From: a virus
Length of the DNA stretch: 30,402 bases
Reading direction: 5' to 3' (one strand)
Virus record (IMG/VR): IMGVR_UViG_3300000101_000039
Coordinates: 1-30,402 of that record
Below are positions 17,221 through 29,118 of this stretch, one piece after another. The translations under genes and the position numbers were made by a program. The first letter of the stretch is position 1, and each line of letters opens with the position of its first letter. The notes below the pieces were generated by a model. It was not told the origin of the DNA. It made no database searches and worked only from the letters and a program-made list of their open reading frames with translations.

Positions 17221-19290
17221 TTATTGAATTTCATACAACCCTACAGGAGACAATTCAGGTTTTTTAGCATTTTGCATTATTAATGCCTCTAATAATTGAT
17301 TTGTTTTTTCACCTGTTCTATTATCTCCACCTCCTAAATTGGTACCTGCTACTACTGTATCGTCATTATTTAATGCTATTGTGTCTTTACCACGTTTAAT
17401 AATGGTTTCTCCATATCCTGGTGGTATTATTGCATCATCTGCAGTTACTGTTTTAGCTGCCATTACTCCCGCAGCTAATGCCCCCACTCCTGCTATTGCT
17501 ATAGGTAATCCTAAGGGACCAGCCATAAATGCTCCTTCAAATATTGCAGAAGTAGCTGTAATTAAGGAAGCAACCATTAATCTAAGTTGATTAGCTACTA
17601 ACCCTCCTAGTATAGCACCCATTATTGCTAAACCCGCTTTTGATTGAGATATTGAAGTTGCCATCATAGCAAAAAGATCAACAAAAGGAGTTATTATAGT
17701 GGCTATACCTACAAAAATTTCTTGCATCTTTTCTATACTGGCAGTTAATCGTTCTTGAACAGAAGCTTGACTTTTTAATCTATCAATTCCTCCTTCTTCT
17801 AATTCTTTTTGAGCTTGAGCTAAACCTACTTCCTCAATTCTTCTATTTAATATTTCTTGTCTTCTTTCTTTTTCTCCTTCACTTGCCCCCGCTAATTGTT
17901 CTTGTACAAATAAAGTTTGTGCTAAATCATCTCTACCCATTCCAACAGCTTTAGCAATAGCTTCCTGTTGAATTCTATTCATAGCACCAAACTCAGCAGC
18001 AGTTCCTGCTTGTTCTGATATTTCTTTTGCTACAGTAGCTAAGTCGTTATTTAAAGCTGCTTGTCTTGCTTTTTCGAGATTAATATTTCTACCTAATAAT
18101 AATTCAGCTTCTAATTCAGATGAGATTGATGATTCAAAATCTAATAAACTTCCTGCTATTGCATCTACCTTAGACAATTCTATACCTAAGGCTTTAGCGG
18201 TAGCTACTGCTTCTGCTATTAATCCCGGATTTTTACCTAATGAAAGAGTAGTAGATGCAGATACATCTTTAATACCTTTAAGTATTTCCTTTTCATTTAA
18301 ATATATTCCAGTTTGACGATTTAAAGAAGAGACTTGATTTAATATAGTATTAGCATTATCCTCTAAACTTTCACCATTAGCTAATGAAAGACTATTAATT
18401 CCTATTAATTCCTCATTAGTTAACCCAGCAGATTCTCTCAATTGTGTAAAAATTGCTAAATTTTCTTTATTTAACATTACACTAGTACCTAGCTGTTGAT
18501 TAATAGCCCCTAAAGATTCACTCATACCCTTAGTAGTAACAAAAACAGAATTAGAGTTTACAGCTGCTACAAACAACTCTTTTTGTAAGGCATTAGCTTC
18601 AGAATAGGATACATTTAAATTTTTAGCTAGATCTCCTGTAGATTTATCAAGTTCTGTAAATGCCTTTAAAAGAGCATTACCCATAGCAACTGCACTTATT
18701 TCTGCTATTCTAGTAGCAGTAACTACCTCTTTAAAATTACCTGATAGAATACCAGATAAGGTACCAGTTTCATCAATTTTATCAGCATATGATACGGCAT
18801 TTTCTAATAATATAGAGGATAAACTTTTATTCCTTTGTTCGATTTTATTTTTTTCTTTAAGAGTATTTAACTCCTTTAATCTTAAGGTTGTTACTTCATT
18901 TATTGCCGATTTTTCTTTTTCTAATTCTGCTTTAAGTTCCCCGGATGCATCTGTTATTTTTTTATCAAGTATTAGTTGTCTTGATGTTACTTTTTCAATT
19001 TCTTCTTGGATTTCCTTTTGGACATTAATCCCTTTATTTATTTTCATTTGAAGGGTAACATCTTTTTCTAAAGATTTTGATTGGGCTTTTAAAGAAGCTT
19101 CTATATCTCTTTTATAAGATTTAGCAATTTTTTCGGAGATTTTATCTATACCACTTAAGGAATCTGCAGCCTCTTCTAAAGCAGTGGTTATAACTGCAGA
19201 TAAAGATTTAAAGGCATTATCTAATACCCCTACTTCTTCTACTTGATCTTTAAGAAGTTGTTTTCCTTTTTCTAAATCTTTATTAGCCAT
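17221..19290 (-). CDS. Tail tape measure protein (T4 gp29 equivalent)
   Basis: The 689-residue protein has the hallmarks of a tail length determinator. Residues 1-170 are highly charged coiled coil (SKSLEKDVTLQMKINKGI, KAELEKEKSAINEVTTLRL), followed by a long alanine/leucine-rich helical region. A second coiled coil with many Glu/Gln/Arg (GEKERRQEILNRRIEEVG) comes next, and a hydrophobic section lies near 525-620 (IFVGIATIITPFVDLFAMM, then GLPIAIAGVGALAAGVMAA) that could enter the host membrane. It lies directly downstream of the frameshift-like chaperone pair, the standard place for a tape measure. If fully helical, about 1.5 angstroms per residue would give a tail near 100 nm, similar to T4. 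It has no lysozyme or peptidase motif; that job appears to sit in the hub. Confidence 0.85.
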   Translation of the reverse strand: MANKDLEKGKQLLKDQVEEVGVLDNAFKSLSAVITTALEEAADSLSGIDKISEKIAKSYKRDIEASLKAQSKSLEKDVTLQMKINKGINVQKEIQEEIEKVTSRQLILDKKITDASGELKAELEKEKSAINEVTTLRLKELNTLKEKNKIEQRNKSLSSILLENAVSYADKIDETGTLSGILSGNFKEVVTATRIAEISAVAMGNALLKAFTELDKSTGDLAKNLNVSYSEANALQKELFVAAVNSNSVFVTTKGMSESLGAINQQLGTSVMLNKENLAIFTQLRESAGLTNEELIGINSLSLANGESLEDNANTILNQVSSLNRQTGIYLNEKEILKGIKDVSASTTLSLGKNPGLIAEAVATAKALGIELSKVDAIAGSLLDFESSISSELEAELLLGRNINLEKARQAALNNDLATVAKEISEQAGTAAEFGAMNRIQQEAIAKAVGMGRDDLAQTLFVQEQLAGASEGEKERRQEILNRRIEEVGLAQAQKELEEGGIDRLKSQASVQERLTASIEKMQEIFVGIATIITPFVDLFAMMATSISQSKAGLAIMGAILGGLVANQLRLMVASLITATSAIFEGAFMAGPLGLPIAIAGVGALAAGVMAAKTVTADDAIIPPGYGETIIKRGKDTIALNNDDTVVAGTNLGGGDNRTGEKTNQLLEALIMQNAKKPELSPVGLYEIQ

Positions 19291-19317: not shown

Positions 19318-19611
19318 TTATTTATAACCTGTTTTACCTTTATATTGTTTGCTAGCTTCTAAAAATGAAGGGGTATTAACTTTACCATCTTTATCTACTA
19401 ATGTAGAAGAACCTTTTTGGGTATTATCTTCCGAGGATTTATTTTGTTCTTTAAAATGATTTTGAATTTCAACAAATGTAAATTTTCTTAACCATATAGG
19501 CATATTATACACTGTATTATAATCAAACCCACCATTTCCATGGAATACTATATCATGGAGAGATTTAAATAAATTTTTTCTAATTTGAGGAGCTATTTCA
19601 GAGGTCAGGCC
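19318..19611 (-). CDS. Frameshift extension of the gp26-like protein (tail assembly chaperone second part)
   Basis: This frame is open from just after a TGA at 19623-19621 down to the TAA at 19320-19318, but offers no ATG, GTG or TTG until the GTG at 19512. The residues before that GTG look like real, conserved protein (KSLHDIVFHGNGGFDYNT, continuing into VYNMPIWLRKFTFVEIQNHF). Starting at 19512 would cut this block in two. The best reading is that ribosomes translating the gp26-like gene slip at the T7 run (19618-19612) into this +1 frame (equivalent to -2) and add about 97 residues, giving a fusion of about 335 residues. This mirrors the lambda G/GT and P2 E/E' chaperones, also placed just before the tape measure. 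A non-standard start or an assembly homopolymer error are alternatives. Confidence 0.7.
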   Translation of the reverse strand, partial: GLTSEIAPQIRKNLFKSLHDIVFHGNGGFDYNTVYNMPIWLRKFTFVEIQNHFKEQNKSSEDNTQKGSSTLVDKDGKVNTPSFLEASKQYKGKTGYK

Positions 19612-19623
19612 AAAAAAAGTTCA
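19598..19623 (-). other. Candidate programmed frameshift site at the gp26-like 3' end
   Basis: Frame 0 reads AAC TTT TTT TGG CCT GAC CTC TGA. Between the TGA of the +1 frame (19623-19621) and the frame-0 TGA (19600-19598) lies a 20-base window in which a ribosome can switch frames, and the T7 run is inside it. Phe-tRNA on TTT can re-pair with TTT after a +1 or -2 slip, so the change is energetically plausible. No strong downstream stem is obvious by eye. Confidence 0.6.
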
Positions 19624-20326
19624 GACCAATAGGGATGGTCACCTCCTCTCCGTTTTCAAGAATATAATTTAGATTAACATCAGGTTGTGTTTTTCTAATG
19701 TGCTCTCTAAATGCTCTTGAATCTCGGGCTAATAAATAATTGTCTACAAAATTTCTAATATCTTTTTTCTCTTCCTTACCATCCACTGAAAGAATCATGT
19801 GTTTTAAACGTGTAGTTAGATCAGCGGAAGATTCTTTATTAATTTTTTTAAGACCTGCTATTTCTCTTTCTATAGCTTTTTCATCTCTTCCGGTTAAAAT
19901 TTTATAAGTAAGAACAGTACCAGTATTTTCTAAAGTATAGGAAAATTCATTTTTCCCTTGTTCTAAATCCTTAGTATCAAATTCTTTACTATCTAGAGTT
20001 GATAAATCTATTGTGTGGGATTGATTTTTAATAGTGACTTCATAATTTTTACCATACCCTAATACCCTGGCGGCTACAAATACAGCATTTTTATCTCCTA
20101 CTATTAAATCATCTATATTAATATCTTTATTTACAATTAAAGAAGACATTAACCTATCTAATACGGTACCTTTTTGAATAAATGATTGGTTAGAAAGAAT
20201 ATCTTCCTCCTTAGCAGTCATATATTTTATTTCTATTTTACCACTTGATAAGGGGTGATCTTTGGGATATACTATACCTTTTGAAGGCAGTTCTACTTCT
20301 TCAGTAGGAAATTTAAATTCATCCAT
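19598..20326 (-). CDS. gp26: T4 gp26-family baseplate/tail assembly protein (T4_baseplate family)
   Basis: The 242-residue protein begins FKFPTEEVELPSKGIVYP and continues with an acidic IEIKYMTAKEEDIL segment, then ends GLNFFWPDL. This PSKG-Y-P / MTAKEEDIL opening is what I associate with the T4_baseplate (gp26) family, listed in T4 as a hub assembly component. Its final codons contain seven T residues (19618-19612) and overlap another conserved frame that runs on to 19318. With the tape measure next in line, I infer that this is the first half of a tail assembly chaperone pair analogous to lambda gpG. It has its own upstream promoter-like region after the gp19 terminator, so it probably begins a transcription unit. 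T4 gp26 itself is 208 residues. Confidence 0.8.
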   Translation of the reverse strand: MDEFKFPTEEVELPSKGIVYPKDHPLSSGKIEIKYMTAKEEDILSNQSFIQKGTVLDRLMSSLIVNKDINIDDLIVGDKNAVFVAARVLGYGKNYEVTIKNQSHTIDLSTLDSKEFDTKDLEQGKNEFSYTLENTGTVLTYKILTGRDEKAIEREIAGLKKINKESSADLTTRLKHMILSVDGKEEKKDIRNFVDNYLLARDSRAFREHIRKTQPDVNLNYILENGEEVTIPIGLNFFWPDL

Positions 20327-20428: not shown

Positions 20429-20917
20429 TTAGAAATTCAATATACAGTAATCAGGTTGTACTTCTAAAGTTAATTCTTGAGCAGCATTTTCAGTATCCCA
20501 ACTGTAATCACCAAAATTAGCAGAAGTAATTAAAGCACCTTTAATAATCCATTCTGATACAATATCACCTACAGGACCAAGTACATCTAAAGTAAGATCT
20601 TTCTTATAGAAATCACTATACCCATCTCTACCTGTTACTGATTCGTGATGTAATCTAACCCATTCCATTACGGCTTGAGCACCACTAGGTGTAATAGGAT
20701 CAAATAGGGTCATTGATATTGGGGCCCATGTTGTTTTACCTTTTACAAATCTTTGGACATTTATATGATTTAGAGCAACGGTGCCTTGATTTAATGTAAC
20801 GGCTCCCATACCTTTAATTTGGTATGAAGGGATTCCATCTACATAGAGAATAAACCTATTCTTTTGTTTGGGCTCGAATGCTGTAAAAAATATTTCGTTT
20901 GGATCTAATACTGCCAT
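20429..20917 (-). CDS. gp19: Tail tube protein, gp19
   Basis: The 162-residue protein matches T4 gp19 in size (163) and layout. It opens FFTAFEPKQKNRFILYVDGI (the strand pair that starts the tube barrel), then has IPSYQIKGMG, the VQRFVKGKTTWAPISMTLFD strand/loop region, a helix AVMEWVRLHHE, and ends on a beta strand (ELTLEVQPDYCILNF). It stacks as hexameric rings around the tape measure inside the sheath. It is encoded directly after gp18, as in T4, with its own upstream motif and a terminator behind it, which suits a highly expressed structural gene. Confidence 0.95.
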   Translation of the reverse strand: MAVLDPNEIFFTAFEPKQKNRFILYVDGIPSYQIKGMGAVTLNQGTVALNHINVQRFVKGKTTWAPISMTLFDPITPSGAQAVMEWVRLHHESVTGRDGYSDFYKKDLTLDVLGPVGDIVSEWIIKGALITSANFGDYSWDTENAAQELTLEVQPDYCILNF

Positions 20918-27891: not shown

Positions 27892-29118
27892 TTAAATTAA
27901 TCCCGCAAGCTTGCGCATACGGTTATATACATCATTTGATTCAATGATAGGCTGTTTTTCTGTTCGCTTAGGTTCTAAACCTGTTGCTTTTGAAGCAGCA
28001 CCTAATTTGATTGATTCATTAATAGTAGGGGTATCTAATATCCCTTCACTTAAAGTTTCAAAAATAGATTTTGCATCTTTAACAGTTTTCGCATTATCAA
28101 ATGCTTTTAACACCTTAACTTTTTTATTTTCAGTTAAGTTTTTTTCTTTGAAGATTTTATTAGTATAAAGTAACTTAGCATTCAAAAGATTAACTTCTTG
28201 TAATTCAGACTTAAGAGTTTCGATTTCACTCATTACCTCTTTAAATCTCATTTTTTCAGTTTCTTTTTCAACTTCGCTATCTCCTTTATCTCCATGTCGC
28301 ATGTCAGGATCAGACATTTCTTCGTCAATTTCTACATCTACATCAACTTCGTCTTCAACTTCTACGTCTTCAACATCTGTGACTTCAACATCATCCTCTA
28401 CGAATTCATCTCCTGGCTCAATTTCACCTGCAGCTACCATATCAGTAATAACGCTTTCAATGAAAGATTTAAGATCATCTTCTGACATATCTTCAAGATC
28501 AATTTCTTCATCTTCCATACCGTCTTCCATATCTTTCTTTTCATCTTCTTCGCCATCTTCATAGCCTTCTTCCTCAGCATCAGTACGAGCATCTTCTTTC
28601 ATATCTTCTTTCTCGTCTTTCATACCGTCTTTATAGCCTTCTTCTTCAGCGTCAGTACGGGCGTTTTCATCAAGGTCTTCTTTTTCGTCCTTCATTCCAT
28701 CTTTATACCCTTCTTCTTCAGCGTCTGTTCTAGCATCTTCTGCAAGCTCCTTAAGCAATTCATCCAAATTAACTTCTTCTTCTACTTCTTCTTCTTTAAT
28801 ATCTTTCATTACACTAGCTTTATCAGCATAGCTTTTTGATTGACTTTTCCCAACCTTTGCAGGTATAGGATCTAAAGTAGGTCCAGCAGTAGAATTAGCA
28901 TAATCAAATGCGGTTGTTTCGCTGTTTTCGTCAACTTCCTCTTTTTCGACCTCATTTACCTCTTCTTCATCATCCATTTCCTGCAACTTAGCAGATAACA
29001 TAGATTTTAAATGTGGAGTAAAAGCTTCTTCTAGAGCAAGTTTAGCATTGGCAATAGCAGTCTCTTTAACGGCTTTTGCATCAGCAATTGCTTCTTTTAA
29101 CAAATTTTTATTTGTCAT
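27892..29118 (-). CDS. gp22: Prohead scaffold (core) protein, gp22
   Basis: The 408-residue, very acidic protein ends in a region typical of gp22: MRFKEVMSEIETLKSELQEV, then NLLNAKLLYTNKIF and KVLKAFDNAKTVKDAKSIFE. The N-terminus (residues 1-45) is a basic/alanine-rich helix. Between these are low-complexity Glu/Asp stretches and three 24-residue tandem repeats at about 129-200 (ARTDAEEEGYKDGMKDEKED unit). gp22 forms the inner core on which gp23 assembles, and gp21 degrades it. It sits between gp21 and gp23 exactly as in T4. The repeats make it longer than T4 gp22 (269). Confidence 0.9.
   Translation of the reverse strand: MTNKNLLKEAIADAKAVKETAIANAKLALEEAFTPHLKSMLSAKLQEMDDEEEVNEVEKEEVDENSETTAFDYANSTAGPTLDPIPAKVGKSQSKSYADKASVMKDIKEEEVEEEVNLDELLKELAEDARTDAEEEGYKDGMKDEKEDLDENARTDAEEEGYKDGMKDEKEDMKEDARTDAEEEGYEDGEEDEKKDMEDGMEDEEIDLEDMSEDDLKSFIESVITDMVAAGEIEPGDEFVEDDVEVTDVEDVEVEDEVDVDVEIDEEMSDPDMRHGDKGDSEVEKETEKMRFKEVMSEIETLKSELQEVNLLNAKLLYTNKIFKEKNLTENKKVKVLKAFDNAKTVKDAKSIFETLSEGILDTPTINESIKLGAASKATGLEPKRTEKQPIIESNDVYNRMRKLAGLI
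28519..28734 (-). repeat. Three tandem 72-bp repeats inside gp22
   Basis: Units 28734-28663, 28662-28591 and 28590-28519 encode ARTDAEEEGYKDGMKDEKED plus four variable residues. Units 1 and 2 are identical over these 20 residues but use different synonymous codons; the third has drifted (YEDGEEDEKKD). Copy number could vary by recombination between units. Confidence 0.92.

Follow-up and report, generated by a model that had tools for sequence, protein, structure and literature searches.

A 2016 review describes lambda-type frameshifting as widely distributed among long-tailed phages "except T4", different phages using −1, −2 and +1 shifts (PMC5009743). Both T4 proteins, gp26 and gp51, fall into PF12322/phrog_150; gp51 covers the entire phrog_150 profile and also matches phrog_634, a family that includes the short "gp51" of cyanophages. 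Vladimirov et al. reportedly identified the T4-like chaperones in 2022, under a title that argues for a mechanism other than frameshifting. A later paper summarizes that work as describing a short gene and a long fused gene (PMC10274946), and another refers to it in connection with poly-T signals in T4-like TAC-N genes (PMC12846349). The cyanophage gp51 was noted in 2010 to be about 20% of the normal length, with the first ~200 residues missing; the accessible passages of that paper hold no frameshift explanation (PMC3037559). The T4-like chaperone assignment is already published (2022); by contrast, the +1 signal and the direction switch described below look new, as no report of either was found in the literature searched, in which few subscription journals were covered.

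The window analyzed here is a stretch of 30,402 nucleotides from IMG/VR record IMGVR_UViG_3300000101_000039, a marine phage whose host is probably a member of the Bacteroidota. On its minus strand, a gp26-like gene (ORF1) and a start-less reading frame (ORF2) almost certainly form a tail assembly chaperone locus with a programmed frameshift, and comparison with relatives makes it very probable that the locus is of the G/GT type and that its shift is +1. The joining of both ORFs as a lambda G/GT-like pair, proposed in the original prediction with either a +1 or a −2 shift, remains the best reading, with +1 favored.

Layout and conservation of the ORF1/ORF2 pair

ORF1 runs from an ATG at 20326 to a TGA at 19600-19598, and the ORF2 frame, +1 relative to ORF1, is open from 19620, its stop ending at 19318 (Table 1). 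The prediction that ORF2 lacks a standard start before GTG 19512 holds, as does every coordinate checked: this GTG is the earliest ATG/GTG/TTG, and a TGA at 19623-19621 shuts the frame upstream, just before the T run. Coordinates on the minus strand likewise bear out the proposed +1 overlap of 23 bases (19620-19598) with T7 (19618-19612) inside it. The frame-0 codons from 19621 are AAC TTT TTT TGG CCT GAC CTC TGA; ORF2 would be read only once the ribosome has shifted. One skipped base gives a fusion of 335 aa and a −2 shift one of 336, the two lengths originally predicted; the former was obtained by translation with a four-base step.

Table 1. Features of the predicted chaperone locus in the window.
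Feature	Positions	Strand	Basis
ORF1, gp26-like, probable short tail assembly chaperone (TAC-N), 242 aa	19598..20326	-	ATG to TGA, phrog_150, predicted fold
ORF2, start-less probable C-terminal extension (T domain, gp51 C-terminus-like), 100 aa	19318..19620	-	+1 frame, conservation, homology
Predicted slip site TTT TTT T (frame 0: AAC TTT TTT TGG)	19612..19618	-	TTT[T/C]TTT in 119 loci
Codon AAC preceding the run; its final C prevents a canonical -1 heptamer T TTT TTT	19619..19621	-	Codon counts
Dual-coding overlap end GGCCTGACCTCTGA: WPDL-stop (frame 0), GLTSE (+1)	19598..19611	-	
Predicted frameshift product (TAC-NC), 335 aa with +1 slip	19321..20326	-	Translation with one four-base step
SD-like GGAGAGGAGGTGA, candidate 5' stimulator, role putative, unusual spacing	19639..19651	-	SD-like match statistics, Glu codons
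Putative tape measure protein, 689 aa, directly downstream of the pair	17221..19290	-	Position only
Tail tube protein, directly upstream of the pair	20429..20917	-	phrog_4542 tail tube, E 2e-21

The pair lies between the tail tube and the putative tape measure genes, the same order as annotated in phages immuto and LIS04. The putative tape measure had no family match in profile searches, and a tape measure is annotated at the matching position in immuto and LIS04. A single gp26/gp51-like gene copy is present in the 40.7-kb record, which is incomplete. Elsewhere in the window, a 72-base tandem repeat (28553-28746, 2.7 copies) codes for acidic repeats in an ORF (29118-27892) located upstream of another (27866-26187), and the C-terminus (HSSRNSRHNKGNALDFTLG) of a 1142-aa baseplate-region protein (14684-11256, minus strand) recalls, by eye, an M15-type peptidase motif.

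Relatives were gathered by ORF1 similarity alone and then scored for frame. The +1 frame is the long open one in 122 of 123, isolated phages included; one of the 123 loci (L004) has a broken ORF1, and a few contigs stop inside ORF2. The overlap and the T run thus recur among relatives, as the original prediction would have it: TTT[T/C]TTT is present in frame in 119 loci (TTTTTTTGG in 109, TTTCTTTGG in 5, TTTTTTTTC in 3, TTTCTTTAC in 2), most of them with T7 or T8, while seven carry an interrupted run, TTTCTTT, and keep the same +1 relation. The relation extends to far relatives that lack TTT[T/C]TTT, namely SP-15, GXN1 and LR756508 (sites TTT TTT C, TTC TTT C and TTT C, respectively), to a sister clade of ~40% identity (L138 and others; TTC TTT T) and to the Streptomyces phages BRock and LuckySocke (CTG TTT C). 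In LR756508 and LIS04, +1 fits only if the slip occurs one codon earlier. The CCTGA core of the overlap end is nearly invariant, and the ORF1 stop drifts by a few codons. Isolates with the +1 relation are immuto, Mel-JY01, SP-15, GXN1, LIS04, BRock and LuckySocke; the host of immuto is Flavobacterium sp. LMO8. In isolated relatives, ORF2 is annotated as a short hypothetical protein or is absent. The contig of one relative with the same site (L124) is binned as a Woesearchaeota genome; it probably comes from a phage and was misbinned.

Is the start-less part of ORF2 a protein at all? Among representatives below 85% identity, 71 of which have a complete ORF2, the 34 leading well-filled ORF2 codons have entropies of 0.82, 0.63 and 1.31 at codon positions 1, 2 and 3, a pattern indicative of protein constraint from the slip onwards and in line with the earlier claim that the residues ahead of the GTG are conserved as protein. 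The alignment of these 71 representatives has no conserved start codon ahead of the Met of NMP (column 38). Because the arrangement recurs in 122 of 123 relatives and the start-less part is conserved in a codon-position-specific manner, it is far beyond chance.

The slip site and competing explanations

Of 75 ORF1 columns in which the amino acid is conserved, all but the two slip codons vary at the wobble base, a count made on loci filtered on the run pattern, the filter having dropped only three far relatives. Elsewhere in these genes TTC accounts for 17% of Phe codons, yet neither slip codon ever changes its third base. The codon ahead of the run is biased too: where it encodes Asn, it is AAC in 34 cases and AAT in none (elsewhere, 75% AAT), and where it encodes Ser, it is AGC in 14 of 15 (elsewhere, 5%). 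The base before the run is never T (73/73 representatives), with a product probability of about 2e-31 under an assumption of independent representatives that does not hold. These preferences are not explained by dual coding, since the +1 frame is untranslated upstream of the slip; judged by codon choice, the slip codons are tuned beyond the amino acids they encode. A T before the run would create a canonical −1 heptamer, and the exclusion can thus be read as avoidance of −1 slippage, which suggests a site built for forward movement. A −1 programmed frameshift (X XXY YYZ) was rejected for the window: ORF2 is in the +1 frame, and no T precedes the run.

A second element may assist. An SD-like GAGGAGGT lies 22-26 nt ahead of the run; matches of at least 6 nt are found in 46 of 73 representatives, compared with about 6% of control windows. 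At this element, GAG outnumbers GAA 92 to 25 (79% GAG), the reverse of Glu usage elsewhere (197 to 1215, 14% GAG), and at Gly codon −5 GGG is strongly over-used (33/60 vs 84/934). Stimulatory SD sequences lie 3 nt from the slip site in prfB and 10-14 nt in dnaX, and the spacing here matches neither. SD sequences are not recognized by Bacteroidia ribosomes (PMC9976891). Downstream RNA structure gave no signal (mean z of about −0.5, compared with −0.3 in a control stretch).

How would the frames be joined? We infer that slippage takes place in cells and that it is the less frequent outcome: most ribosomes would stop at the ORF1 end, giving a short chaperone like lambda gpG and T4 gp26, and a minority would slip +1 at TTT TTT T. 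The P-site Phe-tRNA, placed on the second TTT or, in some relatives, on CTT, would re-pair with the overlapping TTT; the ribosome would then read GGC CTG and carry on to the end of ORF2. The product would be a long chaperone comparable to lambda gpGT and T4 gp51, and its additional C-terminal helical domain would recruit tail tube protein to the tape measure, the product of the next gene. All 27 +1 loci placed on the tree have UUU or CUU followed by a pyrimidine, so a P-site tRNA can re-pair one base on. At the immuto junction, a +1 shift would give ...GVSFLGLTPEYR, with the junction peptide FFPEDGPDGGVDIPIGVSFLGLTPEYR, and a −2 shift ...GVSFLFGLTPEYR.

The rival that survives best, a −2 shift in which the tRNA moves back by two bases from the second TTT and an extra Phe is read (336 residues), is known in Mu (PMC5009743); re-pairing two bases back is also possible on T7 and on TTTCTTT, and the invariant wobble T of the first TTT would suit it. 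However, the L138 clade (TTC TTT T), GXN1 (TTC TTT C) and BRock and LuckySocke (CTG TTT C) keep the frame relation, and there a −2 slip would place Phe-tRNA on UCU or UGU, with a middle-base mismatch, while a +1 slip re-pairs well. We infer that the shift is +1, which these variant sites make highly likely, and consider −2 unlikely.

ORF2 could also be translated alone, from a non-standard or internal start or by reinitiation after ORF1, so that no fusion would be made. The original prediction named relatives with an ATG of their own before the FHGNGGF block as evidence against a frameshift, and such relatives exist: in L149 (2199-2531) and L153 (from about 2205), the T-domain ORF starts at its own ATG right behind the ORF1 stop and no longer stands in the +1 relation. 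On the tree, the two group as a single derived pair beside immuto, outside the clade of the window, which itself has no such ATG; as judged from sequence, they represent a natural loss of the frameshift. Fusion is not obligatory across the whole family, since both carry ORF2 as a separate gene. The SD-like GAGGAGGT upstream and a CTG in the ORF2 frame conserved within the near clade could be counted in favor of reinitiation, but the CTG is missing in Mel-JY01, SP-15 and LR756508, and the hosts of the clade are probably Bacteroidota, whose ribosomes do not recognize SD sequences (PMC9976891). In the window, an own start for ORF2 was rejected: the TGA at 19623-19621 leaves no usable upstream start, and no start codon is conserved. 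Reinitiation would also leave the tuned slip codons unexplained, and it is very improbable.

RNA polymerase slippage on the T run would give a fraction of mRNA of altered length, to be translated in frame. Most loci do have T7 or T8, but runs of 7 are usually too short for polymerase slippage, and the seven TTTCTTT loci, along with the TTCTTTT and CTGTTTC relatives, keep the relation; this route is more improbable still. A sequencing or assembly error that splits what is really one in-frame gene, the T6 case named at the outset as refuting, can be set aside with near certainty: homopolymers are error-prone, but 122 of 123 loci from separate assemblies (119 with the motif, some as TTTCTTT) and several isolated phages agree, interrupted and non-homopolymer variants require the same shift, and the shift persists even though the ORF1 stop moves.

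Homology to gp26 and gp51, and predicted folds

ORF1 matches phrog_150, labeled "baseplate hub" (E 1.7e-9), and PF12322 (E 6e-4; its 19.9 bits fall below the cut-off of 24.5, which relatives L123 and L037 pass with 36.6 and 56.4). For ORF2, the link to gp51 is bridged via phages with a −1 arrangement because direct comparison of the window-clade fusion with the T4 proteins gave no significant match in hmmsearch or hhalign. In hhalign, T4 gp51 and the −1 fusions of Aer65.2, S-RIM8 and SRB7757 align over their full lengths (Prob 99.0, E 9e-18). The +1 T domains in turn match the −1 T domains taken together with gp51 C-termini (Prob 94.6, E 7e-8; reversed control E 0.3), against a Prob of only 10.6 with gp51 alone. 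Through this bridge, ORF2 is identified as homologous to the gp51 C-terminus. Its match to PF16459 Phage_TAC_13 (E 7e-4, below the cut-off) is suggestive only, and a PDB sequence search returned no match. On sequence evidence, the frame relation, the tuning of the slip codons, the coding constraint on ORF2 and its homology to the gp51 C-terminus can be regarded as established.

Structures of ORF1 and ORF2 were predicted separately. Among solved folds, the ORF1 model (mean pLDDT 89.9) comes closest to YqbN (3klu, Z 5.6), followed by the tail assembly chaperone of HK97 (2ob9, Z 4.9). The two matches cover residues 1-93 and, with the next row at Z 3.6, stand apart from most others, but they are modest. 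A Foldseek search of ORF1 against the PDB gave nothing significant, chaperones appearing only as modest matches with E above 1, and among predicted viral structures ORF1 matches those of SP-15 and VH7D and an Acidovorax "baseplate hub assembly chaperone". The ORF2 model is helical (pLDDT 76) and has no significant match in the viral structure library. Recasting the gp26-like family from baseplate component to chaperone, as originally suggested, is consistent with the gp51 homology and with chaperone folds being the nearest solved.

A possible direction switch and comparison with known systems

In several phages (S-RIM8, Aeromonas 65.2, SRB7757, VH7D, phiM19, Yut3, XacN1, Atu_ph07 and others), a gp26 homolog ends in Phe-Phe at T TTT TTY, with a T-like ORF in the −1 frame. 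Short "gp51" ORFs of cyanophage and T4-related loci (L134 3169-3369, L133 3178-3357, L169 and others) also lie in the −1 frame of gp26; they resemble the portion of gp26 that a frameshift would add, and their annotation as baseplate hub assembly catalyst genes in their own right is likely an error. Given the alignment of −1 fusions with gp51 and the homology of the T domains, T4 appears to have ended up with two genes where others use a frameshift.

On a tree of the N-terminal domain, four states (+1, −1, duplicated, separate start) require 4 changes, compared with a minimum of 3: there is one large +1 group, the T4 duplication falls beside the −1 phages, and L149 and L153 fall beside immuto. 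The tree is unrooted, so the direction of the first switch is not readable from it; LR756511 (L038), ambiguous with a −1 frame and a possible own ATG, was omitted. Taken with all its parts, it seems reasonably probable that a homologous Phe-Phe chaperone frameshift site reversed direction during evolution. It would run backward (−1, T TTT TTC) in T4-, cyano- and Vibrio-type phages and forward (+1, C TTT YTT T) in a clade with Bacteroidota, Firmicutes and Streptomyces phages, with both products kept throughout the switch; the T4 lineage would have replaced the site by gene duplication, and L149/L153 by separate initiation. The +1 shift would work in Bacteroidota, perhaps with the conserved SD-like element, at an undescribed spacing.

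The locus would add a very widespread +1 programmed frameshift signal overlooked by automatic annotation, and the long-noted "truncated" cyanophage gp51 would have a simple explanation as the frameshift-read end of gp26. A single chaperone that occurs in −1, +1, duplicated and separately started forms offers a natural series for comparison, and the mechanics of forward slippage become testable in hosts whose ribosomes ignore SD sequences.

How does the locus compare with described systems? Like lambda G/GT, P2 and Mu, it would use overlapping frames, placed between the tail tube and tape measure genes, to make one short and one extended product, the shift lying close to the end of the first gene; unlike lambda, which shifts −1, and Mu, which shifts −2, it is predicted to shift +1, and its N-terminal protein (PF12322/phrog_150-type, about 242 aa) has no detectable sequence similarity to lambda gpG. 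T4 gp26 and gp51 are of the same family (phrog_150), gp51 bearing the ORF2-homologous C-terminal domain, but in T4 the short and long forms are two separate, divergent genes with no shift, whereas the window has one gene and a predicted frameshift. In S-RIM8, Aeromonas 65.2, Vibrio VH7D and Salmonella SP1, a gp26 homolog is likewise followed by a T-domain ORF in another frame and the shift is expected at the same Phe-Phe codons; their shift would be −1, mostly at a canonical T TTT TTY, while the window clade excludes that T. The prfB (RF2) site CUU_UGA shares with the window a P-site YUU followed by U and forward re-pairing, but has a stop codon in the A site and an SD 3 nt upstream, as opposed to TGG and an SD-like element at 22-26 nt. 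The original prediction held both the shift direction and the heptamer to be uncommon; the heptamer is indeed unusual, but +1 in a tail chaperone has a precedent. This is HSTV-2, a haloarchaeal myovirus whose tail chaperone likely shifts +1 (cited in PMC5009743): an archaeal virus, unlike the phage of the window, it resembles it in the direction of the shift in a myovirus tail assembly chaperone.
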